Source: Paenibacillus riograndensis SBR5
Lineage (GTDB): Bacteria; Bacillota; Bacilli; Paenibacillales; Paenibacillaceae
Direction: 5' to 3'
Assembly: GCF_000981585.1 (NCBI RefSeq)
Contig: NZ_LN831776.1
Location: 7,383,216 to 7,447,215 of the forward strand
DNA: 64,000 nucleotides
Under the pieces are notes generated by a model. The model was not told where the DNA came from and made no database searches. It was given only the letters and a program-made list of their open reading frames with translations. Both the position numbers and the translations under genes were made by a program. Of the stretch, positions 681 through 58,370 are shown in pieces. Numbering within the stretch: position 1 is the first letter of the stretch; every line of letters begins with the position of its first letter.

Positions 681-864
681 AAGTGGAAAAAGTAGAACTA
701 AATCAGCGGTTACCGGGCTTCACATCGTCATTAGTGGGAAAAAGTAGAACTAATCCGGCTGTTTTGAGTAACTAGCCTTGATTTCTTTCGAAATAAGTGG
801 AGAAATTCCCACTAACTATCAATTTGGGCTGGACTCCTGCCGGATAGGTGGAGATATTCCACCC
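681..864. repeat. Composite of four 51-bp-phased intergenic motifs, copy 1
   Basis: Four related short motifs begin at about 681, 732, 795 and 846, giving steps of 51, 63 and 51 bp. The first two read AAGTGGAAAAAGTAGAACTA-like. The third is AAGTGGAGAAATTCCCACTA, an inverted repeat with AGTGG/CCACT arms. The fourth is GGTGGAGATATTCCACC, a near-perfect palindrome. The same four motifs in the same order, with steps 51, 62 and 51 bp, recur at 43641-43820. Stop codons in the motifs argue against coding. The rest of 455-680 shows no gene. Confidence 0.8.
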
Positions 865-934
865 CAGCTTCAGAGGTTCGGCCCCGAGCAGAAGCTCGTG
901 CCCCGAATTCCCTCCGGGCAGGAGAGGCCCGCTG

Positions 935-1110
935 CTTGTCCGGTTTGCCTTGTTGTCCGGCTTGCCTGGGTTGCCCGACTTGCCCGGTGTACCCGGATTG
1001 TCTGGTGTACCCGGTTTGTCCGGGTTACTCGGCGTTCCCGGCTTGTCTGGTGTACCCGGTTTGTCCAGCATGCCCGGCTCCCCGGCGTACCCGGCTTGTC
1101 CAACATACCT
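935..1110. repeat. 18-bp GC-rich minisatellite
   Basis: The region is made of degenerate copies of an 18-bp unit like GGTGTACCCGGTTTGTCC and its 12-bp sub-units. On the minus strand one frame reads as collagen-like DKPGTP repeats (about 99 codons), but there is no convincing ribosome binding site, the frame breaks between copies and other frames are also open. I treat it as a non-coding or decayed minisatellite downstream of prmC rather than a gene. Nothing recognisable lies between it and the prmC stop at 1234. Confidence 0.6.
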
Positions 1111-1233
1111 GAATATGCCCGGCGTACTGACTTAGCCGCTTGCCCGACTATGTCCGGGCAGTCTCTGTCGGCGCTAACTGGCCGCGCTTAACGGGCAATC
1201 ATCGCCAGCAATTAACAGCACTTGGCCGCCTCC

Positions 1234-2148
1234 CTATCGAGCTATGCCCAACACATGGCGGGGAATCCCCGCGAGATCGTCAATGGTGACAATCTCGCTC
1301 CAATGGCCTGCTGCCCGCAGCAGCTTGGCCACCTGCCCGGCCTGACCTTGGCCGAGTTCGAAGCCGACCAGCCGCGGGGGGGCCGGGAGCAGCGGCAGCT
1401 GCTCCATCATGCGGCGGTACGGGTCCAGCCCGTCATCGCCGCCATCCAGCGCGGTGCGCGGCTCATGGTCGCGCACTTCGCGCTGCAGCCCGGCGATATC
1501 CCCGCCGGGAATATACGGCGGGTTGGAGACGAGAATATCCGTCTCCATCCCCGCAAACGGCTCGAGCAGGTCGCCGAGCCGCAGGTCCACTGCCGTGCCG
1601 TGCCGCTGCGCATTGCGCCCGGCCACGGCCAGCGCGCCGGGCGAGATGTCGCCGGCGCAGACCCGCCACGCCGGCGCTTCCGCCGCCAGCGTGACGGAGA
1701 TCGCTCCGCTGCCGGCGCCGATGTCGACGGCGGTCAGCGGACGCGCCGCTCCACCCGGCGCAGCAACCAAGCCGTCCGGCCACAGCTCCGCGCCGTACTT
1801 CAGAATCGCCTCGACGAGCAGCTCCGTCTCGGGCCGGGGAATCAGCACATCGGGCGTTACTTCAAACACCCGCCCGTAGAACTCCTGCTCGCCGATGATA
1901 TATTGCACCGGCTCACCGGCTGCCCGGCGGGTAACCCCGGCCTCCCAAGCCGACCGCGCTTCTGGCGGAAAAGGATCAGCCAACGCCATATAATAGGCCG
2001 CCCCGGACAAGCCCAGCACATGCTCCAGCAGAAGCTGGCTGCTGCGCTGCGGCTCATTGCACCCGGATTTGTCCAAAAAAGAAGAAGCCTCCGCAAAGGC
2101 TTCCCGGATGCTTTGCACGTCAGGCATGACATAAGAGTCGTGATTCAA
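1234..2148 (-). CDS. prmC: Release factor glutamine methyltransferase PrmC
   Basis: PrmC N5-methylates the glutamine of the GGQ motif of release factors RF1 and RF2 using S-adenosylmethionine, in the cytoplasm. The 304-residue protein has an N-terminal helical domain, the SAM-binding glycine loop VDIGAGSGAIS near residue 140 and the catalytic NPPYIP motif near residue 210. The start is a TTG (2146-2148) nine bases after GGAG; no in-frame ATG fits the site better. The site lies in the last codons of prfA, only 4 bp separate the prfA stop from this start, and translation is probably coupled. Its substrate gene is immediately upstream, the usual order in Firmicutes. Confidence 0.95.
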   Translation of the reverse strand: MNHDSYVMPDVQSIREAFAEASSFLDKSGCNEPQRSSQLLLEHVLGLSGAAYYMALADPFPPEARSAWEAGVTRRAAGEPVQYIIGEQEFYGRVFEVTPDVLIPRPETELLVEAILKYGAELWPDGLVAAPGGAARPLTAVDIGAGSGAISVTLAAEAPAWRVCAGDISPGALAVAGRNAQRHGTAVDLRLGDLLEPFAGMETDILVSNPPYIPGGDIAGLQREVRDHEPRTALDGGDDGLDPYRRMMEQLPLLPAPPRLVGFELGQGQAGQVAKLLRAAGHWSEIVTIDDLAGIPRHVLGIAR

Positions 2149-2152
2149 AGCA

Positions 2153-3220
2153 TTATTCTCCTTTTTCCATCAATTCCGCCTGCTCTGCAATCGACAAGGC
2201 CGAAATAATTTCCGTAATATCACCGTTCATGACCTGATCCAGACGGTGCAGCGTAAGGCCGATACGATGGTCAGTCACACGGCTCTGCGGGAAGTTATAG
2301 GTGCGGATACGCTCACTGCGGTCACCAGTGCCGACCTTGCTCTTGCGTTCTCCGGCATATTTCGCTTCTTCCTCCTGGCGCTTCATATCCGAGATCCGGG
2401 CACGGAGCACCTGCAGGGCTTTCTCTTTGTTGGAGTTCTGAGACTTACCGTCCTGGCACGTAGCCACGATGCCGGTAGGCACGTGAGTCACGCGAACCGC
2501 AGATTTGGTCGTATTAACCGACTGTCCGCCCGCTCCGCTGGAGCAGAAGGTATCTACGCGGATATCTTTATCGAGAATTTCAATTTCGAACTCTTCCGCT
2601 TCCGGCATAACCGATACGGTAGAAGTAGAGGTATGAATACGTCCTCCCGATTCTGTGGTCGGGATACGCTGCACGCGGTGTGCGCCGCTTTCGAATTTCA
2701 TTTTGCTGTACGCGCCGCGTCCGTTGATCATGAAGATAACCTCTTTGAAGCCGCCGAGGTCATTCGTATTGACATCCATCAGCTCCACACGCCAGCCCTG
2801 GGCATCCGCATAGCGGGTATACATCCGGTACAGATCTGATGCGAACAATGCCGCCTCATCCCCACCGGCTGCCCCGCGGATTTCCACAATCACGTTTTTG
2901 TCGTCATTAGGGTCCTTCGGCAGCAGCAGGAGACGGATTTTCTCCTCCAGCGCAGTCTGGCGCGAGGACAGGTCTTCAATCTCCATTTTGACCATTTCTT
3001 TCATTTCATCATCAAGCTTTTCGCCCTGCATCATTTTAGCGGCTTCAAGCTCTTCCATTACATTTTTATATTCGGCATACGCCTCAAAGGCGGGCTGCAA
3101 ATCGGATTGTTCTTTGGAATAGTCCCTCAGTTTCTTACTGTCGCTTGCAACATCCGGGTCACAAAGCAGTTCACTGAGTTTCTCATAGCGGTCCGCCAGG
3201 GATTGCAATCGGTCCAACAA
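2153..3220 (-). CDS. prfA: Peptide chain release factor 1
   Basis: RF1 recognises UAA and UAG stop codons in the ribosomal A site and triggers hydrolysis of peptidyl-tRNA. The 355 residues match the usual length. The catalytic loop GAGGQSVN lies near residue 230, within the typical S-S-G-A-G-G-Q context, and the anticodon-like PxT loop is represented by [14 protein letters not shown] around residue 185. The first Met is at 3220, behind AGGAGAGG. It forms a two-gene unit with prmC, whose product methylates the Gln of this GGQ. Confidence 0.97.
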
Positions 3221-3497
3221 GGGAATTCACCTCTCCTGATTCAATTTCAGATTCAATATGGGAAACTTTAAATTAATACTTTAAATTGTTGGTACAATAA
3301 AAATAGATATACGACTTTATATTATACTACCGAACCCGCCGATTGGCTACAGTGCCTGTGTACAGCCTTAAATATTTTTAAAGCCGGTGAAACTCCACTC
3401 CTTATGATGTGATCCGGCAGAAAAGTTATTCATAACACGGAAGTTCGATTGAAATAAATATGAAAGCCGGGAGCAAAAGTTTTATTTCGTTATAATT

Positions 3498-3523
3498 AGA
3501 AAAAATCACCCTACGGGTGATAA
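3498..3523 (-). terminator. Orphan intrinsic terminator, minus strand
   Basis: A 7-bp perfect stem ATCACCC/GGGTGAT (3505-3521) with a 3-nt loop is followed on the minus strand by six U residues. It lies about 400 bp beyond the ychF terminator, with no minus-strand gene in between, so it may end a short untranslated transcript. Confidence 0.55.
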
Positions 3524-3900
3524 GGCTGCTCACTAAAGTTAGGCCTAACGGACTTAGCCAGTTATACCGCCTCTCAACCCATTTAGCCTGCTTCCGCAAA
3601 ATTCAAAGACACTTTTACCTCTCATTTCCACCTGCAGCGAGTCTCCTTGTTTACTTATCATCCGGTTCTCATCATCCGCTATTTTTCACATTATATAGCT
3701 TCAACAAACCACCATTTGTTACTTCAACAACAGCATTTCTGCCGTTATTTCAGCACAACCAACCCTCTGCTCCTGAACAACAGCAGTTCTGCCGTTATTT
3801 AGATCCACATTCGTCTTCAGACGAGTTGATCAGAAAATTCGTATCCCCAATTTTATAAATATCTTATCCATAATGGAATGTAATCATTATTTCCGAAACG
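3524..3900. other. Gene-free interval with decayed repeats
   Basis: No credible gene is present between the terminators at 3498-3523 and 3905-3949. Position 3602-3630 (TCAAAGACACTTTTACCTCT) resembles a single unit of the 58-kb 51-bp array. Two copies of CAGCATTTCTGCCGTTATTT/CAGCAGTTCTGCCGTTATTT begin at 3731 and 3781, 50 bp apart. A plus-strand open frame of 113 codons here has no ribosome binding site and no family resemblance. Confidence 0.5.
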
Positions 3901-3902
3901 AT

Positions 3903-3949
3903 AAAAAAGTCATCCGGTTGCAGAGATTTTCTACAAGCAGATGACTTTT
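3903..3949 (-). terminator. ychF intrinsic terminator
   Basis: Arms AAAAGTCATC (3905-3914) and GATGACTTTT (3940-3949) form a stem that ends in a run of U on the minus strand, 28 bp after the ychF stop. Confidence 0.8.
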
Positions 3950-3976
3950 GGTATTCCTTGATTAGACGGTTACGGC

Positions 3977-5077
3977 CTATACGTTGAAACGGAAATGCAT
4001 GACATCGCCGTCCTGCACCAGATATTCCTTGCCTTCCAGACGCAGCTGTCCGCGTTCCTTGGCACCGTTCATCGAACCGGCTGCCAGCAGATCGTCATAA
4101 GCTACGACCTCCGCACGAATGAAGCCGCGTTCGAAGTCCGTATGAATGACACCGGCTGCACCTGGTGCTTTGGTTCCCTTGCGGATGGTCCAGGCGCGAA
4201 CCTCCTGCACACCTGCAGTAAAGTAAGTGTAGAGACCCAGCAGCTTATAGGCTGCCTTGATCAGGCGGTTCAGACCGGATTCCTGCAGGCCCAGCTCTTC
4301 CAGGAACATCGCTTTGTCTTCGCCTTCCAGTTCGGCAATCTCCGCTTCCACCTTGGCGCTGATCGGCACCACTTCGGCATTCTCGGCAATAGCAAATTCA
4401 CGGACCTGCTGAACGTAAGGGTTCTCGTCGGCAGCAGCCACTTCGTCTTCTCCTACGTTAGCCGCATACAGCACTGGCTTCAGGGTCAGCAGATGAAGAT
4501 CGCGCACAATCAGACGTTCATCATCGGTCAATTCTACGCTGCGCGCAGGTTTGTCTTCGTACAGAGCTTCCTTGATGCGCTCAAGCACTTCTACTTCCTG
4601 GACGTATTTTTTGTCGCCGCCCTTGATGTTTTTGCGGGAGCGTTCGATGCGCTTCTCCAGGCTCTCCAGATCGGCCAGAATCAACTCCAGGTTAATCGTC
4701 TGAATGTCACTGACCGGGTTTACTTTGCCATCGACATGGGTCACGTTCTCATCCACGAAGCAGCGCACCACATGAACAATCGCATCCACTTCACGGATAT
4801 GCGCCAGGAACTTGTTGCCCAGGCCTTCGCCCTTGCTCGCCCCGCGTACGAGACCGGCAATATCCACGAATTCAAAGGCAGTCGGAACCGTCTTGTTCGG
4901 CTGCACCAGCTCTGTCAGCTTATCCAAGCGCTCATCCGGCACTTCCACGACACCCACGTTCGGGTCAATTGTGCAAAAAGGATAGTTGGCGGATTCTGCT
5001 CCCGCCTGCGTAATTGCATTGAATAATGTGGATTTCCCCACGTTGGGAAGTCCTACGATACCAGCTTTCAAAGCCAT
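3977..5077 (-). CDS. ychF: Redox-regulated ATPase YchF (Obg-like)
   Basis: YchF/OLA1 is a universally conserved P-loop NTPase of the Obg family that prefers ATP and associates with ribosomes and the stress response. The 366 residues are the standard length. Visible motifs are the P-loop GLPNVGKST at the N-terminus, [20 protein letters not shown] (G3 and switch region) near residue 70, and NVGE in place of the GTP-specific NKxD near residue 200, which explains ATP use in this family. The C-terminal TGS domain ends with the conserved [10 protein letters not shown]. The start follows GGAG, and the gene stands alone with its own terminator. Confidence 0.96.
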
Positions 5078-5325
5078 TTATATGACAACTCCTATTTTCG
5101 GTTGGATTGATCACCGCATAATTTCCAGGTTTGATCTCAACCATTATATATTAGAACAAAACCGCCAGCAACAGCGGATGTCCGGCGGATGTGTCAGATA
5201 AAGGGCGGTGGTCCGCCCCGTGATGCAGCCCGCAGCGGCTCCGCCGGCCCCTGCAAAGGGGCGTCTTCATTCTCAGCAAGAATAGAAGGAGACTTGATAG
5301 CTTCAATTCTACGATTTTCTCCAGG

Positions 5326-5796
5326 TTATAGATCCTTCGACATGGTGATATCGGTGACGGCAAAACCCGCTTTTTTGTAAAGCTCAAAAGCACGGTTGTT
5401 CTGGCCGAATACATGCAGGCCGATTCTGGTTATCTTCAGCTTACGGGCTTCCTCATCCAGTGCAAGCAGCGTCTGTTTGCCGTACCCTTTTCCCTGGAAC
5501 GCTTCAAAAACATAAAAATCATAAATAAAAGCTTCACGCCCGTTGCGTCCCTCGCTTACGTTGAACCAGATATATCCGGCCTGAGTATCGGTCTCCGTCT
5601 CTACTATAGAATAAAGATAAGCCCCTTCCGTGTTGAGCCCCTCAGGCAAAAATCGGGTCATCTCATCTTGGGACAGCTGCATAGCCGTCTCGACATCCCA
5701 TGAACCGGCTTTGATTTTGTCCTCCGCATAATCACGGGTGGACTGGCTTAAAAAAAATTGAAATGTAGTTTCGTCCATCTGGACCAGTCTAATCAT
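5326..5796 (-). CDS. GNAT family N-acetyltransferase
   Basis: This 156-residue protein carries the acetyl-CoA pyrophosphate-binding loop EAFQGKGYGKQTL (R/Q-x-x-G-x-G/A) near residue 100, preceded by the strand IYDFYVFEAF and followed by the C-terminal signature LHVFGQNNRAFELYKKAGFAVTD. It transfers acetyl groups to an amine on an unknown substrate. It begins at an ATG behind GGAAGGG, reads in the same direction as its neighbours, and is about 45 bp from the fni stop. The 250-bp gap to ychF shows no further gene. Confidence 0.9.
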   Translation of the reverse strand: MIRLVQMDETTFQFFLSQSTRDYAEDKIKAGSWDVETAMQLSQDEMTRFLPEGLNTEGAYLYSIVETETDTQAGYIWFNVSEGRNGREAFIYDFYVFEAFQGKGYGKQTLLALDEEARKLKITRIGLHVFGQNNRAFELYKKAGFAVTDITMSKDL

Positions 5797-5842
5797 GGTT
5801 TTGTGCCCTTCCTTATTCCTTATTCCTTATTCTCTAATCATG

Positions 5843-6970
5843 TCAACATCTAATCAGGCGGTGAGTCCCGCGGAGTGCCGCCAGGTCCGGGGCGCCGATG
5901 CCGAACATCGCGGTCCGCAGCTCCAGCTCCACCTGGGCCAGCGCCTGATCCAGCGTCTCCTCGGACGCTACAGCCGGACCCAGCAGATTCCGGCCGAAGC
6001 CGGCCAGATCCGCGCCGAGCGCCAGTGCCTTCGCAGCATCCACACCGTGCCGCAGCCCGCCGCTGCCGATCAGCGCTCCGTGCTTCGAGGCCGCCCGCAC
6101 CTCTGCAATGCACTGCGCGGTGGGAATTCCCCAATCCGCGAAGGCCTCAGCGGCAGCCCGCCGGACCGGATCGCTGCTGCGGAATTTCTCGACTTGGCTC
6201 CAGGAGGTGCCGCCAGCGCCCGCCACATCGACAAAGGCGACCCCGGCACCGTACAGCCTTATTGCCGTTTCTCCATCAATGCCCCAGCCGACCTCTTTGA
6301 CGCCGACGGGAATTTCCAGCTCTCTGCACACGCGCTCGATCCGGGTTAACAAGTCAGCAAATCCGGTATTCCCTTCGGGCTGAAAAACCTCCTGAATCCC
6401 GTTCAAATGCAGAACCAGCCAATCCGCACCTGCGATCTCTACAGCCCGGCGGCATTCTTCCACGCCAAAGCCGTAAGACAATTGGACCGCTCCGATATTG
6501 GCGATGACAGGAATGCCCGGGGCCTTATCGCGGACCCGGAAAGACGCCGCCAGCTCGGACCGCTCAATTGCCGCCCGGATGGAGCCTACCCCGAGCGCCC
6601 AGCCCCGGCGCTCGGCGGCCTCCGCCAGCCTGGCATTAATAGCGCCGGTAGCAGCACTGCCACCGGTCATGGAGCTGATCAGCAGCGGTGTGCGCAGCTC
6701 ACGCCCCAGGAAGACTGTCCGCAGGGAAATGTCATCGTAATTCAGCTCGGGGAGCGCATTATGGCGGAAGCGGTAATGCTCAAAGCCAGCCGTAATGCCG
6801 CTGGCCCCGACCTCCTCGTTCAAGCACAGCCTTACATGTTCAATCTTGCGTTCTCCCGTCGTGGGTGAAGGCAGCAGAGACTGATGCCCGGCAGGTTTTG
6901 CCGCCTGCGGTGCGATGCCCGTTGTTTTTGATATTTTATGCGTTGACTCTTCCTGCGGTATCTGGCCCAT
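5843..6970 (-). CDS. fni: Type 2 isopentenyl-diphosphate delta-isomerase
   Basis: The FMN- and NAD(P)H-dependent IDI-2 interconverts isopentenyl and dimethylallyl diphosphate for isoprenoid synthesis. The TIM-barrel motifs are all present: SSMTGG, VIANIGAVQL, LHLNGIQEVFQPEGNT, VGVKEVGWGI, DVAGAGGTSW and the phosphate-binding SGGLRHGVDAAKALALGA. The usual family start RKxEH appears only at residue 41, so the protein has about 40 extra N-terminal residues. The start at 6970 is nevertheless favoured because it follows a strong AAGGGGGGA site and no in-frame ATG is closer. Presence of IDI-2 fits Gram-positive bacteria. The 364 bp upstream (6971-7334) hold no other gene. Confidence 0.95.
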   Translation of the reverse strand: MGQIPQEESTHKISKTTGIAPQAAKPAGHQSLLPSPTTGERKIEHVRLCLNEEVGASGITAGFEHYRFRHNALPELNYDDISLRTVFLGRELRTPLLISSMTGGSAATGAINARLAEAAERRGWALGVGSIRAAIERSELAASFRVRDKAPGIPVIANIGAVQLSYGFGVEECRRAVEIAGADWLVLHLNGIQEVFQPEGNTGFADLLTRIERVCRELEIPVGVKEVGWGIDGETAIRLYGAGVAFVDVAGAGGTSWSQVEKFRSSDPVRRAAAEAFADWGIPTAQCIAEVRAASKHGALIGSGGLRHGVDAAKALALGADLAGFGRNLLGPAVASEETLDQALAQVELELRTAMFGIGAPDLAALRGTHRLIRC

Positions 6971-7334
6971 GCTGTAATCCCCCCTTCCAAATGATCTATG
7001 TATACACGGCGGGGCCGATCTCCCGCATTGATTTTTACATCAGAAGGTTAAAGAAACCTTATTTAGTCTGCTAAGTTGGAATTGTATCAATTGACTGCCA
7101 GCACGCTTCATTATAGCATATCCGCATCCCACAACCACGCGCGGCCATTTACGGGACCCATGTGTCCATTGTTTCAGGTGTGATCAGCAATGGATGGACC
7201 GCTTATATTCCTCATTCCTGTCATCAGGCGTTGCTGCTGCTTCAGTTTCCCTCTGCGGGTGTTAAATAGTTGGATACCCTGCCGGAGCATACTAATAGTA
7301 CAAGTTTACTCCGCATTACATTCAGGAGGAACCC

Positions 7335-8876: not shown

Positions 8877-8911
8877 GGGCAGAATCCCCGCTTGGCTCGC
8901 AAGCCCAATGC

Positions 8912-8957
8912 AAAAGACCGCTAGACACCTGCACCCAGCAGGGTCTGACGGTCTTTT
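8912..8957 (+). terminator. Terminator between PLD-like gene and cls
   Basis: Arms AAAAGACCG and CGGTCTTTT flank an inner AGAC/CCTG-containing stem. The hairpin ends in TTTT on the plus strand and AAAA-derived U on the minus strand, so it can serve both convergent genes. Confidence 0.75.
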
Positions 8958-9024
8958 CTAATATCACGCGCGCATCTGGAGATGCACGATTGGCAGCCGT
9001 ATGCCCCTCATAGCTCAGGTCTTA

Positions 9025-10713: not shown

Positions 10714-10724
10714 CGGTTTGACTA

Positions 10725-10746: not shown

Positions 10747-10769
10747 GGGTCAGAGAGGAGTCGCTTTCT

Positions 10770-23561: not shown

Positions 23562-23633
23562 AATTAAGTTTCCTTTTTCCATTTAAATCTCAAGATTATT
23601 GATTCTGAGGAGAAATAGGTTCCCTTATTCCAA
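23562..23633. repeat. Two-motif intergenic repeat, copy 1
   Basis: AAGTTTCCTTTTTCCATTT begins near 23566 and AGGTTCCCTTATTCCA near 23617, a 51-bp step. The intervening text (TTGATTCTGAGGAGAAATA) closely matches that between the corresponding motifs at 29757 and 29808, so the whole 70-bp block is shared between two loci. Confidence 0.7.
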
Positions 23634-23716
23634 CAAGCGCTGCTAGCAGCTATCCAACAGAATATCCTTCAGGGATTCCTGGTCATCGTTCTTGAGCATT
23701 ATGTAATCTCTCTATA

Positions 23717-29643: not shown

Positions 29644-29827
29644 AAGTGGAAAAAGGGTAACTAATTTGCCCAAGCACCCTGTTGTCCGCAGGTTAAGTGG
29701 AAAAAGGGTAACTAATTCAGCTCATTTCACCCCTGACTAAGCAATATGGCCCAATTAAGTTCCCTTTTTCCACCTAAAACTCCTAATTGTTGATTTTGGG
29801 GAGAAATAAGTTCCCTTTTTCCACCTA
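29644..29827. repeat. Four 51-bp-phased motifs, two in each orientation
   Basis: AAGTGGAAAAAGGGTAACTA starts at 29644 and 29695 (51 bp). Reverse-oriented copies AAGTTCCCTTTTTCCACCTA start at 29757 and 29808 (51 bp). The second pair with its spacer is also found at 23566-23633. The remaining 29461-29640 and 29830-30090 show no gene. Confidence 0.8.
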
Positions 29828-39682: not shown

Positions 39683-39721
39683 AAAGCAGCGATTCTCCCA
39701 TGAGTGGAGAATCGCTGCTTT
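39683..39721. terminator. Hairpin downstream of MFS gene
   Basis: Perfect 16-bp arms AAAGCAGCGATTCTCC/GGAGAATCGCTGCTTT with a 7-nt loop. The U-run is poor, so function as a terminator is inferred from position. Confidence 0.6.
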
Positions 39722-39804
39722 GGGTCCAATGCCGCGTGCACCGGCAGATACACCTGCAGCTGGTGCCGCTGGTAAAAAGAGTCTCGGCCCCGGCGGCCCC
39801 GGCG

Positions 39805-40139
39805 GCTTATTCAAAGGTATTTTTACCTTTGATTCTGCCACTTCCAGCCCTGGCGGCCCATTCAAAGGTATTTTTACCTTTGATTCTGCCACTTCCGGCC
39901 CAGGCGGCCCATTCAAAGGTATTTTTACCTTTGATTTTGCCACTTCCAGCCCTGGCGGCCCATTCAAAGGTATTTTTACCTTTGATTCTGCCGCTTCCAG
40001 CCCAGGCGGCTTATTCAAAGGTATTTTTACCTTTGATTCTGCCGCTTCCGGCCCCTGCGGCCCATTCAAAGGTATTTTTACCTTTGATTCTGCCACTTCC
40101 GGCCCAGGCGGCCCATTCAAAGGTATTTTTACCTTTGAT
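39805..40139. repeat. 51-bp tandem array A, seven copies
   Basis: The core TCAAAGGTATTTTTACCTTT recurs seven times with first bases at about 39810, 39861, 39912, 39963, 40014, 40065 and 40116, exactly 51 bp apart. Its inner part CAAAGGTA-TTTT-TACCTTTG is a perfect inverted repeat. The 28-bp inter-core text (CTGCCACTTCCGGCCCAGGC-like) is also nearly identical between units. Because 51 is a multiple of three, open frames cross the array on both strands, encoding a 17-residue repeat, but neither has a convincing start. It lies between the MFS gene and the glnS terminator. Confidence 0.9.
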
Positions 40140-40147
40140 TTGTCCCG

Positions 40148-40191
40148 CGCAAAGAGGCTGCCCCGTCATATGATGACTCGGACAGCCTCTT
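40148..40191 (-). terminator. glnS intrinsic terminator
   Basis: On the minus strand AGAGGCTGTCC pairs with GGGCAGCCTCT, followed by TT and GCGC. It starts about 20 bp after the glnS stop. Confidence 0.7.
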
Positions 40192-43069: not shown

Positions 43070-43430
43070 AGATGTGCAAGCCCGTTAAGGCGGAAGGCAG
43101 CACATTTCCGTATGTGCAAGCTCATTGAGATGGAAGGCAGCACACTTTCCGTATGTACAAGCTCATCAGATGCAAGGCAGCACACTTTCCGTATGTACAA
43201 GCTCATCGAGATGCAAGGCAGCACGCTTTCCGTATGTACAAGCTCATCAGATGCAAGGCAGCACGCTTTCCGTATGTACAAGCTCATCAGATGCAAGGCA
43301 GCACGCTTTCCGTATGTACAAGCTCATCAGATGCAAGGCAGCACACTTTCCGTATGTACAAGCTCATCAGATGCAAGGCAGCACGCTTTCCGTATGTACA
43401 AGCTCATCAGATGCAAGGCAGCACGCTTAT
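43070..43430. repeat. 40-bp tandem repeat array, about nine copies
   Basis: The unit contains AAGCTCATCAGATGCAAGGC then AGCACGCTTTCCGTATGTAC (40 bp). GGCAGCAC occurs nine times at 39-42-bp steps between 43097 and 43426. The first two units are diverged and the last six nearly identical, as in an expanding minisatellite. The 40-bp period shifts the frame each copy, so the open frames here are not genes. Confidence 0.85.
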
Positions 43431-43437
43431 CCAAACC

Positions 43438-43496
43438 ATTTGCAGCGGTCAAAACCCCGGAGGAATGATTCCTCCGGGGCTTTGACCGCTGCAAAT
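43438..43496. other. 59-nt near-perfect hairpin
   Basis: Two 28-nt arms, 43438-43465 and 43469-43496, are complementary apart from one A/C position and separated by only TGA. The arms contain GCAGCGGTCAAA and CCCCGGAGGAA. No U-run follows on either strand. It sits directly behind the 40-bp array. Confidence 0.8.
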
Positions 43497-43640: not shown

Positions 43641-43820
43641 AAGTGGAAAAAGTACCACTAATCCAAAATTCTAGGCTCCTCCGCCAACATTAAGTGGAAA
43701 AAGTATGACTAATCTGAACCCATCGGCCTTCCAGCACTGGATTTGCCGAAATTAAGTGGAGAAATTCCCACTAAATCTCTGTTGTGGCACGAATATCGGC
43801 AAATTAGTGGTAGAAAATCC
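43641..43820. repeat. Composite of four 51-bp-phased motifs, copy 2
   Basis: Motifs start at 43641 (AAGTGGAAAAAGTACCACTA), 43692 (AAGTGGAAAAAGTATGACTA), 43754 (AAGTGGAGAAATTCCCACTA) and 43805 (TAGTGGTAGAAAATCCACTT), steps 51, 62 and 51 bp. Order and spacing match 681-864. The last two motifs are inverted repeats with AGTGG/CCACT arms. Confidence 0.8.
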
Positions 43821-43859
43821 ACTTACCATCTTAAGGGACCTGGCGCAAGCAACTTCAGC

Positions 43860-49136: not shown

Positions 49137-49153
49137 TTGTTGTAGCCGGAATA

Positions 49154-49190: not shown

Positions 49191-49223
49191 TGATGGTCCG
49201 CCAGACCTGGGCAGGCCAGGAGG

Positions 49224-50051: not shown

Positions 50052-50122
50052 GATTCCTATCCCCTTTTAATACTTAAAATTTGTTCCTTTATGTCATTGT
50101 AGCGTGTCGACTAAGACAATTA

Positions 50123-50167
50123 CGTGATAAAAATCACTTATGTAAAAACTAAGTGAAACTTTTCACT
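50123..50167. promoter_or_regulatory. Two Fnr/CRP-like boxes before focA
   Basis: CGTGA-TAAAAA-TCACT (50123-50138) and AGTGA-AACTTT-TCACT (50152-50167) match the Bacillus Fnr consensus TGTGA-N6-TCACA closely and start 29 bp apart, 70-115 bp upstream of focA. Confidence 0.65.
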
Positions 50168-50266
50168 GACATGTCAAATTTACCACAAAAGTATCCAATG
50201 CGGAATGTTTTTATTCAAGTGGAAGCGGCCAGTCCGCCAAAAAGATACATTTGTGCCGGGGCGCAT

Positions 50267-50298
50267 CAAAAAACCGGAGCCTTCATTCGGCTCCGGTT
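50267..50298 (-). terminator. NADH oxidase gene terminator
   Basis: AACCGGAGCC and GGCTCCGGTT form a 10-bp perfect stem followed by TTTT on the minus strand, 20 bp after the stop. Confidence 0.9.
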
Positions 50299-50316
50299 AT
50301 GGGGCAGGCTGCAGGG

Positions 50317-51681: not shown

Positions 51682-51729
51682 GGTTTCTTCCTCCTCCAAA
51701 TGTGGGCATTCATTTATTTTCTCTATAGT

Positions 51730-51807
51730 TGTGATTTATTTCACTTTATGAGTTGATTATATTGTGATTTTTCTCACATTACAAGCCTTTTTGTGATTTT
51801 TCTCACA
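51730..51807. promoter_or_regulatory. Three Fnr-like boxes before NADH oxidase
   Basis: TGTGATTTATTTCACT (51730-51745), TGTGATTTTTCTCACA (51763-51778) and TGTGATTTTTCTCACA (51792-51807). The last two are identical, perfect TGTGA-N6-TCACA sites 29 bp apart. Confidence 0.75.
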
Positions 51808-51933
51808 ACGTTCACAACTTTTGCGGATTTTAGTCCTTCAGGTCCACCCTGCAGCTGCATTAGTTTTCCCCGGAACGGGTACATTATGTCTGCTGTACAG
51901 CAGGAAGGAGCAGGGAACCTTCAACGCAGACGC

Positions 51934-51980
51934 AGCAAAGCCCCCTTACCTCTGCATCAGTCGCAGAAATACGGGGGCTT
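51934..51980 (-). terminator. fhs intrinsic terminator
   Basis: Minus strand: AAGCCCCC pairs with GGGGGCTT over a loop of about 26 nt, 26 bp after the fhs stop. The U-run is short. Confidence 0.65.
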
Positions 51981-52005
51981 AAGCCTGTGAATTTATATAA
52001 CCTAG

Positions 52006-53646
52006 TTACTCTAAACCGTTAATGACACCGTCCAGGTCTACCTGAATGCCTTCTGCCGCCGGTTGGGCCGGGAGTCCAGGCATCGTAACGATATTGCCGG
52101 TGATGACTACAGCGAAGCCTGCGCCCAGCGACAACGTAATATCGCGGACACCCATAGTGAAGCCCTCGGGGGCTCCCAGCAGTCTTGGCTGGTCCGAGAA
52201 GGAGTACGGAGTCTTAGCCATGCAGACCTGAAGCTGGTGGAGGCCAAGCTTCTCAATCATGCCCAGGCTGCGCTTTGCTGCCGGCGAGAAGGCCACCTCA
52301 GCGCCACGGTAAATTTCGGTGACGATTTTTTTGATTTTGGCCGGGATGTCCAGATTGTCCTCATACAAGGGAGCAAATGCCGCGGGTTGGCCTTCTCCCT
52401 GCTCCAAGAGCTTCTTCAGCTCCATGGCAAGCTCCAGCCCTCCGGCGCCGCCTTCCGCCCATACCCTGGAAACGGCTGCGGGTACGCCGAGACGGCGGCA
52501 GGCCTCCAGGACATCGTTAATCTCCGAGGGGGCATCTCCTTCGAAGTGATTAAGCGCCACCAGCACCGGAACGCCGAATTTGCCCAAATTCTCAATATGG
52601 CGCTCCATGTTGGAAATGCCGGAGAGCAGGGCGGCCTGGTTCGTCTGATGCAACTCATCTTTGCGCACACCGCCGTTGTATTTCAGCGATTTCACGGTCA
52701 CCACCAGCACGGCAGCGGCGGGAGTAAGCCCGGCTTGACGGCATTTGATATCCATGAACTTCTCTGCGCCGAGATCCGCCCCGAAGCCTGCTTCCGTCAC
52801 CACCACATCACCCAGCTTCAGCGCATAACGGGTACCGATTACACTGCTGCAGCCATGGGCGATATTAGCAAAAGGCCCGCCATGCACAATTACCGGTGTC
52901 CCCTCCAGTGTCTGCACCAGATTGGGCTTCACAGCTTCCTTCAGCAGCGCAGTCATGGCTTCCACTGCCCCGATATCCTTTGCCGTGACCGGCTGGCCCG
53001 ACTGGTCATATCCGACCAGCATGCGGCTGAGGCGTTTTTTGAGATCGGCAAGACCGTCGCACAGGCACAGCACCGCCATAATCTCGGAGGCAGTTGTAAT
53101 CTGGAAACCGCTCTCCCGCACCGTACCGTTGCCATCGCCGAGACCCGTCACAATGCTGCGCAGGCTGCGGTCATTCATATCCATTACACGTTTCCAAACA
53201 ATGCGCTGAGGGTCCAATCCGAGAAGGTTGCCCTGAAAAAGATGATTGTCGATCATGGCCGACAGCAGATTATGCGCCGAAGTTACCGCATGTATATCGC
53301 CTGTAAAATGCAGGTTGATCTCATCCGCCGGAACAATCTGCGCCTTGCCACCGCCAGTGGCTCCGCCTTTCATTCCTAAGGTCGGACCAAGCGAAGGCTC
53401 GCGCAGCGCCGCTACGGTCTTAACCCCCGCTGCATTCAGCGCCTGGGACAGTCCGATGGTCGTCAGCGTTTTGCCTTCGCCGGCCGGAGTCGGATTCATC
53501 GCGGTGACCAGCACCAGCTTTCCGTCCTGATTGTGCTTAAGCTCATCCCAAAGGGATGGCGACAGCTTGCTTTTATATTTGCCGTACAGCTCCAGATGCT
53601 CCTCATGAATTCCTGCTGCCGATGCCACCTCTGTAATTAACCTCAT
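52006..53646 (-). CDS. fhs: Formate-tetrahydrofolate ligase
   Basis: Fhs makes 10-formyl-tetrahydrofolate from formate, ATP and tetrahydrofolate, feeding purine and one-carbon metabolism. The 546 residues match the monofunctional bacterial enzyme. The P-loop is TPAGEGKTLTTIGL (about 52-65), with LREPSLGPTLGMKGGATGGG near 83, and HGGPFANIAHGCSS near 255. The start at 53646 follows GGAGGG. It sits next to genes for a formate channel and a formate dehydrogenase-like enzyme, marking this part as formate-related. Confidence 0.97.
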   Translation of the reverse strand: MRLITEVASAAGIHEEHLELYGKYKSKLSPSLWDELKHNQDGKLVLVTAMNPTPAGEGKTLTTIGLSQALNAAGVKTVAALREPSLGPTLGMKGGATGGGKAQIVPADEINLHFTGDIHAVTSAHNLLSAMIDNHLFQGNLLGLDPQRIVWKRVMDMNDRSLRSIVTGLGDGNGTVRESGFQITTASEIMAVLCLCDGLADLKKRLSRMLVGYDQSGQPVTAKDIGAVEAMTALLKEAVKPNLVQTLEGTPVIVHGGPFANIAHGCSSVIGTRYALKLGDVVVTEAGFGADLGAEKFMDIKCRQAGLTPAAAVLVVTVKSLKYNGGVRKDELHQTNQAALLSGISNMERHIENLGKFGVPVLVALNHFEGDAPSEINDVLEACRRLGVPAAVSRVWAEGGAGGLELAMELKKLLEQGEGQPAAFAPLYEDNLDIPAKIKKIVTEIYRGAEVAFSPAAKRSLGMIEKLGLHQLQVCMAKTPYSFSDQPRLLGAPEGFTMGVRDITLSLGAGFAVVITGNIVTMPGLPAQPAAEGIQVDLDGVINGLE

Positions 53647-53781
53647 GCCGTTTTAAAACCCTCCTGCCGTTATTATCCTGCTTCACCATTCACTCTATGC
53701 ACTTCTCCAAGATCTACATTCCTCTTCAAAGGATACAGTGTCCCTGAAAAGCGTCAAGGATAATTTTCATAGATCCCCATA

Positions 53782-53826
53782 CGAAAAATCCTCCCAAACC
53801 CGGCAAAGGCCGCTATTCGGGAGGAA
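53782..53826 (-). terminator. Gpx gene terminator
   Basis: Minus strand: CCTCCCGAATA pairs with the distal GTTTGGGAGG, followed by ATTTTTC, 50 bp after the stop. Confidence 0.75.
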
Positions 53827-53878
53827 AACTCAAGTTAAGTCGGCACACAGAAACGGCTTCGCCGTCTCCTTAATTGTT

Positions 53879-54355
53879 CTAAAGCAATGCTTCTATCTGT
53901 TCCTTCATGCTTTCAGGTGATTCCTTTGGTTCCACACGGGCTACCACGTTGCCGCTCCGGTCGACGAGGAACTTCGTGAAGTTCCACTGAATGTCACTGC
54001 TCCCGCCTTCTCCCGGCTGCTGGCCCTTCAAGTATTGAAAAAGCAGACTGGCATCCGGCCCGTTCACATCCACTTTGGCAAAAATGGGGAACGTAACGCC
54101 ATAATTAATCTGGCAGAACTCCTCTGCTTCTTCACTGGTGCCCGGCTCCTGTCCGGCAAACTGGTTGCAGGGAAAACCCAATACCACAAGTCCCTTGTCG
54201 CCGTACTGCTCATACAGCTTCTGCAAATCCCCGTACTGTGGTGTAAGTCCGCATTTGCTGGCCGTGTTGGCAATCAGCAGCACCTTGCCTTCATAATCCT
54301 TGAAAGGCACCTCTGCACCCGAAGGCTTCACGCCTGCAAAACTGTAAATAGACAT
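53879..54355 (-). CDS. Glutathione peroxidase family protein (Cys type)
   Basis: A 158-residue thioredoxin-fold peroxidase. The peroxidatic Cys is residue 35 in NTASKCGLTPQY. The conserved FPCNQFAGQEPG supplies a second Cys and the Gln of the catalytic tetrad, and WNFTKFLVDRSG the Trp and Asn. Bacterial Cys-type members usually use thioredoxin rather than glutathione to reduce hydroperoxides. The ATG at 54355 is preferred (AAGGGGAG upstream) over one six codons earlier. It is a single-gene unit. Confidence 0.94.
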   Translation of the reverse strand: MSIYSFAGVKPSGAEVPFKDYEGKVLLIANTASKCGLTPQYGDLQKLYEQYGDKGLVVLGFPCNQFAGQEPGTSEEAEEFCQINYGVTFPIFAKVDVNGPDASLLFQYLKGQQPGEGGSSDIQWNFTKFLVDRSGNVVARVEPKESPESMKEQIEALL

Positions 54356-54467
54356 CCTGCTTCTCCCCTTCATCCGTGGATTTTTCTAACGGCGATGCGC
54401 TGTCCAGCCATTCTTCATCTTAACTCATTGCCGCAGAAATCCAAAATTCACGGCACCGTGGCTGCGG

Positions 54468-55493
54468 CTAATTCACCCCGGCCCCTCCGCGCAATCCGCA
54501 GACTTCGGCTATCAGCCGCAAGGATCTCAGCTTGTCCTCATAGCGGTGCATAAGCGTAGCGAACATAATTTCCTCACACTGGTATTCCTCCATGAGCGCT
54601 GTAAACTGCCGCCGCACTTCGTCCGGTGATCCAAGTACCATTCGCCGGCGGTTATCCTCGATCCGGAACCGGTCATACGGCGTATACTTGTAGCCCAGTG
54701 CCGTCTCCACAGAAGGCGTGCCTGTCGAGACATGGCCCTTCTCCAGCTGAACCAGGGACAAATCCATACTGGCAGCCAGCCGGTCCGCTTCTGCGGAAGT
54801 CTCGGCGCATACGGCAAACACCGATACCAGCGCCTGGGGCGCAGAAGCTGCAGGAGACGGGCGGAAGCTGCTCCGGAAAGAGCGGACCGCCATGCTGCCC
54901 CCTGCACTGTTAATAAACCTGGCGTATGCATAGCCGGTCCCCAGTCTGGCGGCAAGGGCAGCACTTTCCCTGCTGGACCCGAGCAGCCAGAGCTCCGGCG
55001 CAGTGCTGATCTGCGGGCTGGTCTCCAGCCCGGCAAAACGGTGCGACTGATCCGGAGCGCCATACAGATAGCTGAGCAGATCTTGAATCTGCAATTCGTA
55101 CAGCTCAGCGCTGCCGCCGGTCCGGTTCTCCTGGAGCGCTCTTGCGGCGAGCGCCCCGCCTCCTGCAGCTCTGCCCAGCCCAAGATCGATCCGGCCGGGG
55201 TACAGGGCTTCGAGAACGCGAAAGTTCTCGGCCACTTTATACGCGCTGTAATGGGGAAGCAGCACAGCTCCCGAACCGATGCGGATTCTTGAGGTTACCG
55301 CAGCCAGATGTGCCATAAGCACCTCAGGGCTCGAACCGGCCAGCCCGCGTGCCGCATGATGCTCGGAGACCCAGAAGCGGTGATAGCCCAGCCGGTCCGC
55401 CTCTATGGCTAGACTTGCGGTTTCAGCCAAAGCCTCCGCCGGCGTGCTGCCCTCCGAGACCGGCGATTGATCCAGTATGCTTAATTTCATCAT
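54468..55493 (-). CDS. LLM class flavin-dependent oxidoreductase
   Basis: A luciferase-like monooxygenase of 341 residues with LSILDQSPVSEG at the start, GYHRFWVSEHH near 40, and LPHYSAYKVAENFRVLEALYPGRIDLGLGRA near 85-110, the pattern of the group that includes YhbW/YvbT-type proteins. It uses reduced FMN and oxygen on an unknown substrate. A GCCGCAG/CTGCGGC hairpin follows its stop. An alternative first Met is residue 2. Confidence 0.92.
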   Translation of the reverse strand: MMKLSILDQSPVSEGSTPAEALAETASLAIEADRLGYHRFWVSEHHAARGLAGSSPEVLMAHLAAVTSRIRIGSGAVLLPHYSAYKVAENFRVLEALYPGRIDLGLGRAAGGGALAARALQENRTGGSAELYELQIQDLLSYLYGAPDQSHRFAGLETSPQISTAPELWLLGSSRESAALAARLGTGYAYARFINSAGGSMAVRSFRSSFRPSPAASAPQALVSVFAVCAETSAEADRLAASMDLSLVQLEKGHVSTGTPSVETALGYKYTPYDRFRIEDNRRRMVLGSPDEVRRQFTALMEEYQCEEIMFATLMHRYEDKLRSLRLIAEVCGLRGGAGVN

Positions 55494-55570
55494 CAGCGCA
55501 TCTCCAAGTCAATTTTCTCCCCATTATAACATTCGGGTACCTGGCATTTCCTGCTCTGCCTTCTTTACGG

Positions 55571-55608
55571 CAAAAAATCCTCCCCCAGCCACCCGAAGAA
55601 GGATCTTT
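55571..55608 (-). terminator. DUF3243 gene terminator
   Basis: Minus strand: AAAGATCCT pairs imperfectly with AGGATTTTTT, giving a U6 tail, about 50 bp after the stop. Confidence 0.6.
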
Positions 55609-55655
55609 GTCCAGCCTATGCACTTTAGATAAGCGCTAGCGCAAAACAGCTCTAT

Positions 55656-55994
55656 TCAATTCCGGGCCAGCTTAACCAGCATATGCGCCAGCCGTTGGCG
55701 CTCTTCCTTGCTGCCGACCTTCCACAGCTCCAGCAGCAGCTTCTCCTCGCTGTTGCGAGGTTCCTCATGCGCGGCCAAATAGTCGGCGATTTTCTCCGCC
55801 GCTGCGGCCAGCTGTTCTTCGCCCAACCCAATTTTTTGCGCCAATTGGATACGCTTTCTGAGATAAGATCTGAAATCTTCGAAATTCTTCAGGATAACGT
55901 CTTTTTGTTCGGGCTCTATCCGGTCAAGGGCGTCACTCACTTTAGCCATCGTCACATTTCCATCCTTGTTCACCACATGATTATGTTCGGACAT
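55656..55994 (-). CDS. DUF3243 family protein (YmfJ-like)
   Basis: A 112-residue all-helical cytoplasmic protein. FEDFRSYLRKRIQLAQKIGLGEEQLAAAAEKIADYLA is the DUF3243 core, seen in Bacillus YmfJ, whose function is not known to me. The ATG at 55994 follows GAGGGGAGC; the open frame extends ten codons further upstream. It lies about 190 bp behind the FAD oxidoreductase stop in the same direction; 55995-56180 shows no other gene. Confidence 0.87.
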   Translation of the reverse strand: MSEHNHVVNKDGNVTMAKVSDALDRIEPEQKDVILKNFEDFRSYLRKRIQLAQKIGLGEEQLAAAAEKIADYLAAHEEPRNSEEKLLLELWKVGSKEERQRLAHMLVKLARN

Positions 55995-56180
55995 CTGAAG
56001 CTCCCCTCTCACTGGTAATTTCATGGTTTCCCACTACTTAACCAGGGGCCGGGGAGATGAACCATCAGAACCGGCGGCTGCAGCTGTAAGACACACCTGC
56101 ACGGACTGCCGTAGCCTGCCCGCAGAAGATCTCTTCGGTATCCTGATTCATCATACCGATTATGCACGCCCTGACCCTGC

Positions 56181-57752
56181 CTAGACCGCACCAATAGACG
56201 GCCATTCCAGCTCAAACCCGTTATTGCGCAGGCGGGTCTGGAAGCTGCTCAGCTGTTGCGGGGAATTTCGCACCCCACGGGGAGTAGTCCCGTTATCCAG
56301 ACAATAGGCCGCCAGCATGCCTGCAGCCTCTCCAATGTTCCATTCCACCGGGTGAAGCCGGTAGCAGCCATTGGTGATATGCGTGGTCCCAATGTTTTTG
56401 GCAGCAGCGATCAGGTTGTTCACCCGAACCGGGATCAGCGCCCCCAGCGGGATCTGGAACGGCAGCGAAGGAATGTCGATGAAGGTCCGCAGCGCCGTGC
56501 TGGGATGAAGATCAATCCGGTAGCTGCCGATGCCAACAGTATCCGGGTATTTCTCGGCTTTGCCGCCGGGACGGCCGGCCGGGCTGAGATGCTGCTCCAG
56601 AATCGTATATTCCGCGCGGATACGGCGTCCTTCACGGATATACGGAGCCTGTGCAAGTCCATGCGGCGCTCCCGTCGCATCCGGCCGCGGACGAAGGCCA
56701 GGGTAACCTATGCCGCCATCTTTGCGGGGAGCCTCTGTCTGCATCCAATACAACAGGGAAAGACTGAGCTGCTTCGCTCTCTCCAGATGGCGGTGCCTTT
56801 CCTCCGGAGCAACGTCAACAATCGGTCCGAGCCAGTAGTCATTCTGCGGCCAGTTGACCACGCTGAGGTCCGTCTTGTAGGTCCCGGGCTGAAAATTATT
56901 GCGGTCCGCCAATCTCCGGTAAGTAAACAGCGGATTTGCCCCCTCCTCCGGCAAAAGCACATAGGTCACAGGCGCAAGCGTTGAGGGGGAAGGAACGGTC
57001 CAGCTCAGCTGTGGAGCCGGCCAGAAATCAGCCTGATAGTTCTTCCAGAAGTCATATTCCCGCGGCTTGGCAATCGTATAATCTTCACCCTCGTTATAGT
57101 CGAGCGCCAGGCAATGCGTGAACGCCTGGATATCCCGGGGATTCGCCGGACCCGCAAGCGCGTGTCTCTCCCCGGTCTCGGCAACGGATTCTGCGCCGGT
57201 TACGTACTCCACGCCTGCAAGCGGCAGCACATCCCCTTCCTCGGTTGCATCCAAAAAATAGCTGCCTGTCAGCACCAGCCTATCTCCATCCTGCCCGCAC
57301 ACCGTTACTGAAATCACCTCATCCCCGTCTGTCTCGGCCTGCACGGGCTTATATCCGGTCCATATCTGCAGCCGCCCGCTGTGCACATAGGGGGCCAGCA
57401 TATCCCGGAGCACCGCCAGTGCGGTGCGCGGTTCATGTGAGAGACGGCTGACCCAGGCATTTCCGGGATTGAACCCCGCCCGGGCGCGCGCCTGCTCCGT
57501 GAGCGGGAAGAATCTGCGGTAATAGTCGCGTACTGCATTCCGGTAAGTCCGGTAGCTTGCCGTACAGCCAAACTGTTCAATCCAGCGGTTCTCATCAGGA
57601 GGCACCACCTGGCTGGTGAGCTGTCCGCCAATCCATTCATAGGCCTCGGTCATCACCACCGACCGTCCTGACCTTGCAGCACCAAGAGCGGCCGCACAGC
57701 CTCCGGTTCCACCGCCGATAATGATTACATCTGCCTGAATCTGTTTCGTCAT
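56181..57752 (-). CDS. FAD-dependent oxidoreductase (FAD_oxidored/glucose-inhibited-like)
   Basis: This 523-residue protein begins with the dinucleotide motif DVIIIGGGTGGCAAALGAARSG, followed by VVMTEAYEWIGGQLTSQVVPP, which marks the FAD-dependent oxidoreductase family often found beside carbohydrate genes. SYFLDATEEGDVLPLAGVEYVTGAES and the late IAAAKNIGTTHITNGCYRLHPVEWNIGEAAG complete the FAD site. The substrate is unknown. The ATG at 57752 follows GGAGGAG. It is monocistronic as far as seen. Confidence 0.9.
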   Translation of the reverse strand: MTKQIQADVIIIGGGTGGCAAALGAARSGRSVVMTEAYEWIGGQLTSQVVPPDENRWIEQFGCTASYRTYRNAVRDYYRRFFPLTEQARARAGFNPGNAWVSRLSHEPRTALAVLRDMLAPYVHSGRLQIWTGYKPVQAETDGDEVISVTVCGQDGDRLVLTGSYFLDATEEGDVLPLAGVEYVTGAESVAETGERHALAGPANPRDIQAFTHCLALDYNEGEDYTIAKPREYDFWKNYQADFWPAPQLSWTVPSPSTLAPVTYVLLPEEGANPLFTYRRLADRNNFQPGTYKTDLSVVNWPQNDYWLGPIVDVAPEERHRHLERAKQLSLSLLYWMQTEAPRKDGGIGYPGLRPRPDATGAPHGLAQAPYIREGRRIRAEYTILEQHLSPAGRPGGKAEKYPDTVGIGSYRIDLHPSTALRTFIDIPSLPFQIPLGALIPVRVNNLIAAAKNIGTTHITNGCYRLHPVEWNIGEAAGMLAAYCLDNGTTPRGVRNSPQQLSSFQTRLRNNGFELEWPSIGAV

Positions 57753-57964
57753 TTCATTATCTCCTCCATAATTGAACAAAATAAGTACTGCAACTGAACA
57801 AAATAAGCACTGTTTCCCCCTGCCTTTACTTATATGTAATTTTTAGAGATGATTTTACAACTTAAAATTCTCAGGTAACCGAAAAAAAGGAACAATAGAG
57901 GTTTGGGCGATGTATAGCAGAGGTCCAGTGGCCTTGTTAGAACCACAAACCGCACTAGCCCCGC

Positions 57965-58370
57965 TTCTCGGCAGAATCAAAGGTATTTTTACCTCTCATT
58001 TCACTCAATTGCCCGCTTCTGGCTAAATCAAAGGTACTTTTACCTCTCATTTCACTCAGTCGCCCGCTTCTGGCCGAATCAAAGGTACTTTTACCTCTCA
58101 TTTCACTCAGTCGCCCGCTTCTGGCCGAATCAAAGGTACTTTTACCTCTCATTTCACTCAGTCGCCCGCTTCTCGGCCAAATCAAAGGTATTTTTACCTT
58201 TCATTTCACTTAGTTACCCATTTCTAGCCGAATCAAAGGTACTTTTACCTCTCATTTCACTCAGTTGCCCGCTTCTGGCCGAAACAAAGGTACTTTTACC
58301 TCTCATTTCACTCAATTGCCCACTTCTGGCCAAATCAAAGGTACTTTTACCTCTCATTTCAGGGATTCCC
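57965..58370. repeat. 51-bp tandem array B, eight copies
   Basis: AATCAAAGGTACTTTTACCT-like cores start at about 57975, 58026, 58077, 58128, 58181, 58231, 58282 and 58333, with steps of 51, 51, 51, 53, 50, 51 and 51. The inter-core text (TCATTTCACTCAGTCGCCCG) is shared by all. It is related to array A: both have CAAAGGTA followed by T-run and TACCT, and the same period. Frames are open on the minus strand until the indel units, but there is no start site. Confidence 0.9.

Follow-up and report, generated by a model that had tools for sequence, protein, structure and literature searches.

Our data show that most units of a short repeat family, first noticed in a 64-kb stretch of Paenibacillus DNA (the window, meaning the whole stretch analysed), belong to one composite object, a four-site array. 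This DNA comes from a 7.92-Mb genome in a single contig (G000), close to P. jilunlii; the P. jilunlii genome G030 is mostly 92-95% identical to the window. Each array consists of two palindromes 51-52 bp apart, a central step of ~61 bp, and two inverted palindromes again 51-52 bp apart. The centre-to-centre steps of this ++-- layout, ~51.5, ~61 and ~51.5 bp, amount to about 5, 6 and 5 helical turns. From sequence comparison, we lean towards reading the four-site element as a phased operator or docking array on double-stranded DNA for a putative coevolving dimeric protein, probably with a chromosome-level role.

Short palindromes are grouped in phased four-site arrays

A preliminary description of the window had placed about 29 motif units at six places, mostly at steps of 51 bp. 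We found the motifs at all six places, and the count holds (4+2+4+7+4+8 = 29), with one further diverged unit at 3605. With up to three mismatches, the motif AAGTGGAAAAAGNNNNACTAA matches the window 10 times against a mean of 0.12 in 100 shuffles, and AAAGGTANTTTTACCTNT 24 times against 0.20 in 100 shuffles, eight of these 24 being the same palindromes read on the reverse strand. Genome-wide, two motif forms give 256+268 = 524 matches at up to two mismatches and 109+120 = 229 at up to one, compared with 1+4 = 5 and 1+0 for the reversed controls. The window counts lie far above those of shuffled sequence, and the repeat family as first described stands.

We scanned a site matrix over the window and 60 stretches of 20 kb at even spacing (together 1.264 Mb or 16% of the genome; hereafter the sample), with gene boundaries taken from a custom-made gene caller, and detected 224 sites. 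Pair distances up to 62 bp fall at 51 (88 pairs), 52 (26), 54 (1), 56 (1), 57 (1), 58 (19), 60 (1) and 62 (3), against a chance expectation of ~0.04 per distance; no pair is 50 or 53 bp apart. When tandem runs of at least three units are excluded, 154 sites still form 55 pairs at 51/52 bp. The distance scan proposed earlier therefore shows its 51/52-bp peak. The 50- and 53-bp steps once listed beside it do not recur in the sample, and those of 62 and 63 bp are not noise but the central step of the four-site array. The preliminary description had overlooked this ++-- grouping, along with the other genera that carry different palindromes and the replication-linked orientation reported below.

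A four-site finder tolerating steps of 50-53, 54-65 and 50-53 bp returned 180 matches, which represent 81 unique elements, each counted once per strand and again wherever loci overlap; 164 of the 180 have steps of 51|52-58-51|52 in the matrix register, where 58 is the central ~61-bp step between palindrome centres (the 19 pairs above). The 29 multi-site groups of the sample suggest, as an estimate, about 180 complete or partial four-site arrays per genome; a stricter finder detected 21 elements in the sample. The palindromes have a core of TGGA-N5-TCCA with lineage-specific outer bases, here AAGTGGA..TCCACTT.

A second kind of array consists of head-to-tail 51-bp units (seven and eight units in the window), whose number varies between close relatives. 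Compared by eye, the four-site and tandem palindromes, AGTGGAAAAAGTACCACT and AGAGGTAAAAGTACCTTT, have a common core in the same register. Translated in one frame, the tandem array at 39813 gives a 17-amino-acid repeat (open reading frame 39700-40173). We rejected protein coding because 52-bp steps break the frame in other arrays and because the relative G052 retains a single unit here. Elsewhere in the genome, at L080:2587-3094, a four-site array neighbours single sites in a 125-bp tandem array.

The layout recurs in other genera with different palindromes

Genus and family labels in our cross-genome comparisons are tool-defined; NCBI classes the named species as Paenibacillus. Among 100 genomes of the genus (G000 included), searched with up to one mismatch, five have 222-379 matches, one has 30, and 32 have 1-13. 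Seven of nine loci read in low-count genomes show the four-site layout with unrelated spacers; L091 has two sites and L094 one. Across the order, two cores 51 or 52 bp apart were matched in 66 of 392 genomes and 15 of 49 genera, and 10 of the 20 loci read from this search, in ten genomes of other tool-defined genera, are four-site arrays of other palindromes (L212, L216-L220, L225, L227, L230 and L231). Palindromes of the TAGATGGA/TAACTGGA types occur in G204 (P. oryzisoli), G281 (P. contaminans), G259, G191 and G239, and ATTGGA..TCCAAT palindromes in G399 (P. macerans) and G395. Among the matches listed, two loci in Ammoniphilus (Paenibacillaceae) show the same layout with yet another palindrome. 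Of the 80 listed matches 15 were read, and in all nine of these from outside Paenibacillaceae (Bacillus sp., Bacteroidales, Sphingobacterium, Chitinophagaceae, Flavobacteriaceae, Clostridiaceae, Dependentiae, Betaproteobacteria and Clostridia) the palindromes are missing; these matches resemble coding repeats or chance hits.

Seeding other genomes on the first two sites recovered the other two. TCCA peaks at +71 and +122 (19 and 24 of 31 pairs) and, in a second set, at +70 and +121 (16 and 16 of 23 pairs). Of 73 pairs, 57 have both the third and the fourth site (TCCA or TACA, in windows of 6-7 bp), compared with 0-0.19 in control windows; in G213, both outer sites are present in only two of five seeded pairs. 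The four-site array is old, and wider in occurrence than the P. jilunlii clade.

The tandem kind has a possible counterpart: G381 and G391 (L228 and L226; another tool-defined genus of the same family) carry tandem units of ~50-51 bp with cores TAGCGGAA..TTCCGCTA and TTGGTGGAAAA, in arrays that resemble those of G000.

Turnover of the motif between genera is typical of coevolution between an element and its transposase. It would fit the best rival to our reading, a purely selfish, non-autonomous mobile element like a bacterial interspersed mosaic element (BIME) or miniature inverted-repeat transposable element (MITE), whose palindromes would be subterminal sites of a transposase encoded elsewhere and which would insert beside terminators on a replication-defined strand, with no gain to the host. 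We consider this account less likely. In low-copy genomes, four sites persist with wholly different spacers, which speaks against it.

Sites of the four-site kind are probably double-stranded targets rather than hairpins

Among 19 diverged representatives, sites are 75% identical and spacers 36%; the figure for sites is partly circular, since they were selected with the matrix. In these representatives, the two flanking spacers do not tend to pair (mean z -0.26, n=19). Covariation between the arms of a site is likewise lacking. Across genomes, 44 of 116 variable positions are paired, compared with 54.2 (standard deviation 5.6) when arms are permuted within genomes; in G000 and relatives, the counts are 224 against 220.8 expected for the 19 representatives (P 0.13) and 922 against 918.8 for 81 elements (P 0.07). 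Within a site, both arms use one half-site alphabet, and each varies independently of the other.

Orthologous arrays point the same way. In seven ortholog pairs from three loci, with the 29644 array against G026 excluded (site 1 is deleted there), changes affect 35 of 588 site positions (6.0%), 115 of 695 spacer positions (16.5%) and 163 of 815 flank positions (20%). Between the 43641 array and its G073 ortholog, 7/84 site, 32/99 spacer and 63/120 flank positions differ, and at the same gene pair the more distant G085 has four sites with different spacers. That orthologous sites are kept while spacers diverge also counts against a purely selfish element.

We next consider an RNA-level element, whose hairpins would act as terminators, attenuators or mRNA stabilisers. 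Elements do lie at gene 3' ends beside terminators, and their RNA folds beat dinucleotide shuffles: one whole four-site element reaches z -6.3 on one strand and -5.4 on the other, the 43641 array -3.1, and tandem arrays -3.9 and -12.8. The inverted layout must, however, make a four-site array fold on both strands. The spacers of the four-site kind are unpaired, the arms of its sites, scored for this kind only, do not covary, and Rfam covariance models at the gathering score find only group II intron pieces in the window and nothing at six loci. We accordingly regard the RNA-level account as very unlikely. A single long hairpin as the functional four-site form was rejected, as the sites pair by construction and the spacers do not. 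The tandem arrays fold strongly, so hairpins may play a part in that kind.

Dimeric protein sites on double-stranded DNA are thus favoured over hairpins for the four-site kind, to judge from spacers that are unrelated and unpaired, arms that do not covary, and orthologous sites that change less than their surroundings. Spacers that keep their length and lose their sequence, at near-integral helical turns, suggest proteins bound on one face of the DNA. Of the three roles first proposed, a protein array appears best supported, given the near-integral turns, independent half-sites and conserved orthologous sites; a transcript-level hairpin array finds no support for the four-site kind and may hold for the tandem kind.

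Arrays are concentrated between convergent genes and oriented by replichore

The initial statement that all units lie between genes holds in the window by our gene calls. In the sample, 12 of the 224 single matrix sites and none of 49 multi-site elements fall inside called genes. Counting both array kinds, gaps of at least 250 bp hold at least two sites in 18 of 46 cases between convergent genes, 17 of 118 between leading-leading pairs, 4 of 46 between divergent genes and 4 of 27 between lagging-lagging pairs.

We assigned the replichores of G000 by GC skew, which has the opposite sign in one of the 60 stretches (284 kb). All 40 recent copies scored (at least 90% identity; 40 of 238 candidates) are oriented by replichore, a 41st row being a 69% partial reverse match within one of the 40. 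Nineteen of 20 classifiable elements in the sample follow the replichore, the exception being L080, and those between convergent genes do so in nine of nine cases. The diverged genomes G008 (14/15), G046 (11/12) and G085 (17/18) together give 42 concordant pairs out of 45 classified, under a rule written after the data were seen; 4 of 49 rows could not be classified, and a 50th match, from contig 2 of G085, was dropped; the positions at 4.32 Mb in G008, 4.10 Mb in G046, and 0.43, 5.11 and 5.27 Mb in G085 fall between GC-skew sampling points. The tandem kind has the same bias, in 98 of the 100 exact matches listed and 15 of 17 sampled groups.

Orientation as a by-product of gene direction was considered and rejected. 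Genes are 74% leading (661/890) compared with 95-100% of arrays, and the polarity holds between convergent genes, where the direction of the genes could not be its cause. A non-leading gene lies upstream of only 3 of the 21 sampled elements, which sets the scope of this control.

Replichore polarity raises two alternatives. The orientation of all 40 recent copies would suit a selfish element that inserts on a replication-defined strand. It would also suit a polar guidance signal like the FtsK orienting polar sequences (KOPS) or SpoIIIE recognition sequences (SRS), whose orientation a DNA translocase or segregation factor would read while moving toward the terminus. KOPS and SRS are replichore-polar, and the arrays follow GC-skew replichores in four genomes, including the nine cases between convergent genes. 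Such a signal nevertheless seems improbable: the four-site array is nearly symmetric, KOPS and SRS are single octamers and not phased palindrome quartets, and the positions of the 40 copies show no obvious rise in density toward the terminus (judged by eye, no statistic).

Arrays are carried in terminator-linked mobile DNA

Recent copies reach past the array, and most begin with a near-perfect hairpin. One stretch of ~677 bp carrying an array is missing from the same place in G052 and G030, and a second insertion place is nearly empty in G026. Both compared insertions abut the A/T-tract of an intrinsic terminator. The ~677-bp insertion has no clear target duplication, and nested modules in composite insertions hide the true ends. 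The suggestion of a selfish repeat was partly right: in this clade, the array rides on insertions that were amplified recently and that relatives lack at the corresponding empty sites, and these empty sites support the purely selfish account. An autonomous relative with the same ends was found neither in the sample nor at other loci read, in a search that was not exhaustive.

Other mobile elements share this neighbourhood. An IS200-like element encoding a 157-amino-acid Y1 transposase (L199-L203, L206-L208) lies directly after a terminator T-tract in five of six G000 copies read, the L199 copy following another hairpin, and its strand follows the replichore in six of six. A group II intron with a reverse-transcriptase open reading frame (58711-60642, minus strand) lies some 12 bases after a terminator in the window and has an empty site in G052. 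Both count in favour of the selfish account. We rejected the IS200-like element as the mover of the arrays: it is replichore-oriented and terminator-seeking, but we saw no ends in common with them. None of eight G000 copies (of 12 matches) and five copies in relatives has sites on both sides of the Y1 gene. At L201 and L206, the Y1 copy abuts an array on one side, inserted into its end hairpin, and at L207 and L208 the array lies downstream of the Y1 copy only. Nor does Y1 number track site number in 11 genomes, judged by reading without a statistic (G030 has 258 sites and one broken Y1 match, G003 six Y1 genes and no sites), which argues against the selfish account.

An IS110-family element with 16 copies in G000 occupies one fixed position between the second and third sites in 10 of 11 junctions read, with L236 as an exception and L243 giving no readable junction; copies in array centres include L060:15991-17682 and L064:14610-16299. 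The centre of the four-site array is likely a sequence-specified IS110 target. We rejected these insertions as an autonomous array version with a gene between its halves, since the junctions show a separate insertion sequence targeting the centre. Apart from them, no gene lies between the halves of the elements read (not an exhaustive search), a further point against a selfish element.

A non-coding repeat of 100-150 bp (GTAGAAACGGC..GCCGTCC to ATAAATTCTTATATTT) also occurs beside terminators, once in tandem. We saw it at L203 after the IS200-like element, at L067:11155-11292, and at 6318307-6318454 in G052.

The arrays sit in a terminator-linked mosaic of mobile DNA, and at the compared orthologous loci their sites are still better kept than their surroundings.

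A proposed model of phased dimers on polar arrays

In our favoured reading, a phased docking array, each palindrome would take one dimer of a putative DNA-binding protein. The ~51.5/~61/~51.5-bp steps would place four dimers on one DNA face, so cooperative binding, or folding or bridging of DNA, would be possible. The role at chromosome level could be that of a domain boundary, a topology signal or a segregation signal; we infer it from arrays that lie beyond gene 3' ends, are densest between convergent genes and are replication-polar. In the P. jilunlii clade, the array would also have spread by non-autonomous insertion beside intrinsic terminators.

Beyond the circularity of the site comparison and the three-locus scope of the ortholog test, several findings weigh against this reading. 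Sixty-two of the 100 genus genomes have no match to the strict motif, 9 of the 20 order-wide loci are not four-site (L213-L215, L222-L224, L226, L228 and L229), and a tenth, L221, runs off its contig after two sites. Because of these blanks and non-four-site loci, the distribution of the array is patchy: either it is dispensable or its motif has diverged too far for the search to find it. Relative to the very close G052, the sites and spacers of the 29644 array have changed alike (5/84 and 7/99). G027 has a gap without an array at the gene pair of the 43641 array, as a selfish element would also predict, and recent amplification with empty sites fits plain transposition equally well.

The kept layout of ~5-6-5 turns across genera, despite changing sites and spacers, is a strong sign of a conserved putative nucleoprotein machine. 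More speculatively, and with less confidence, the sequences could reflect a novel chromosome-organising system of the Paenibacillus/Ammoniphilus lineage, in which four phased dimers of a coevolving protein on polar arrays, mainly between convergent genes, would read or mark replication direction, and whose arrays, in the P. jilunlii clade, would have multiplied as passengers of insertions that seek out terminators. The four-site array offers a defined DNA bait and predicted mutants (site, spacer +5 bp, inversion), and its species-specific motif versions make both the binder and a specificity switch directly testable. Replichore polarity in four genomes bears on which signals beyond KOPS and SRS make bacterial chromosomes directional.

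Arrays and other repeats of the window

Three four-site arrays lie in the window, all on the plus strand: 681..866 (sites 681-701, 733-753, 795-815 and 846-866; steps 51-52, ~62 and 51 bp; with an ortholog in G026), 29644..29826 (sites 29644-29664, 29695-29715, 29755-29775 and 29806-29826) and 43641..43824 (sites 43641-43661, 43692-43712, 43754-43774 and 43804-43824). A half array at 23564..23635 (plus strand) retains the right-hand pair of sites, 23564-23584 and 23615-23635; this locus has four sites in G030 and three in G026, and is mostly lost in G052. The tandem arrays, also on the plus strand, are seven 51-bp units at 39813..40136 (core AAAGGTATTTTTACCTTT; G052 has a single unit here and G026 has several) and eight 51-bp units with one 52-bp step at 57979..58354 (core AAAGGTACTTTTACCTCT; about one unit in G052). 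The single diverged tandem-type unit, detected as a motif match, occupies 3605..3622 on the plus strand.

Two other repeats occur nearby. A 40-bp tandem repeat in eight copies (43094-43428) directly precedes a strong terminator-like hairpin (43438-43496), and a degenerate GC-rich 9-bp repeat lies at 934-1098, a place where G026 lacks it.

Comparison with known systems

We did not find a four-site phased palindrome array described in the open-access literature. KOPS, SRS, Noc sites and parS are dispersed recognition sites, polar or palindromic, and the arrays resemble KOPS and SRS in being dispersed and oriented by replichore. To our knowledge, no dispersed chromosome motif of this group is a helically phased palindrome quartet.

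The arrays also invite comparison with repetitive extragenic palindromic (REP) sequences and BIMEs, with their REP-associated tyrosine transposases (RAYTs). These are high-copy intergenic palindromes in regular mosaics with non-autonomous mobility, whose motif coevolves between species and for which chromosome-organising binding sites have been proposed (PMC2817692). The four-site arrays are likewise many intergenic palindromes in regular composite structures. Unlike REPs and BIMEs, they form a fixed ++-- quartet of ~5-6-5 turns with strong replichore orientation, their palindromes show no hairpin covariation, and no Y1 gene is flanked on both sides among the 13 copies read. We do not file them in the REP/RAYT family because they lack hairpin covariation, a site-flanked Y1 gene and a correlation with Y1 number. 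Insertion sequences that target REP palindromes are known (PMC1525189); the IS110-family element similarly occupies a fixed point in the arrays, but its target is the four-site centre and not a REP hairpin.

Like MITEs, the arrays show presence/absence polymorphism with a clean empty site, as for the ~677-bp insertion absent from G052 and G030. Group IIC introns prefer terminators. IS200/IS605 elements reportedly target the lagging strand (PMC6006769). Unlike both, the arrays encode no protein, and by reading their ends are not those of the 157-amino-acid IS200; like both, they insert next to intrinsic terminators with a strand bias relative to replication.

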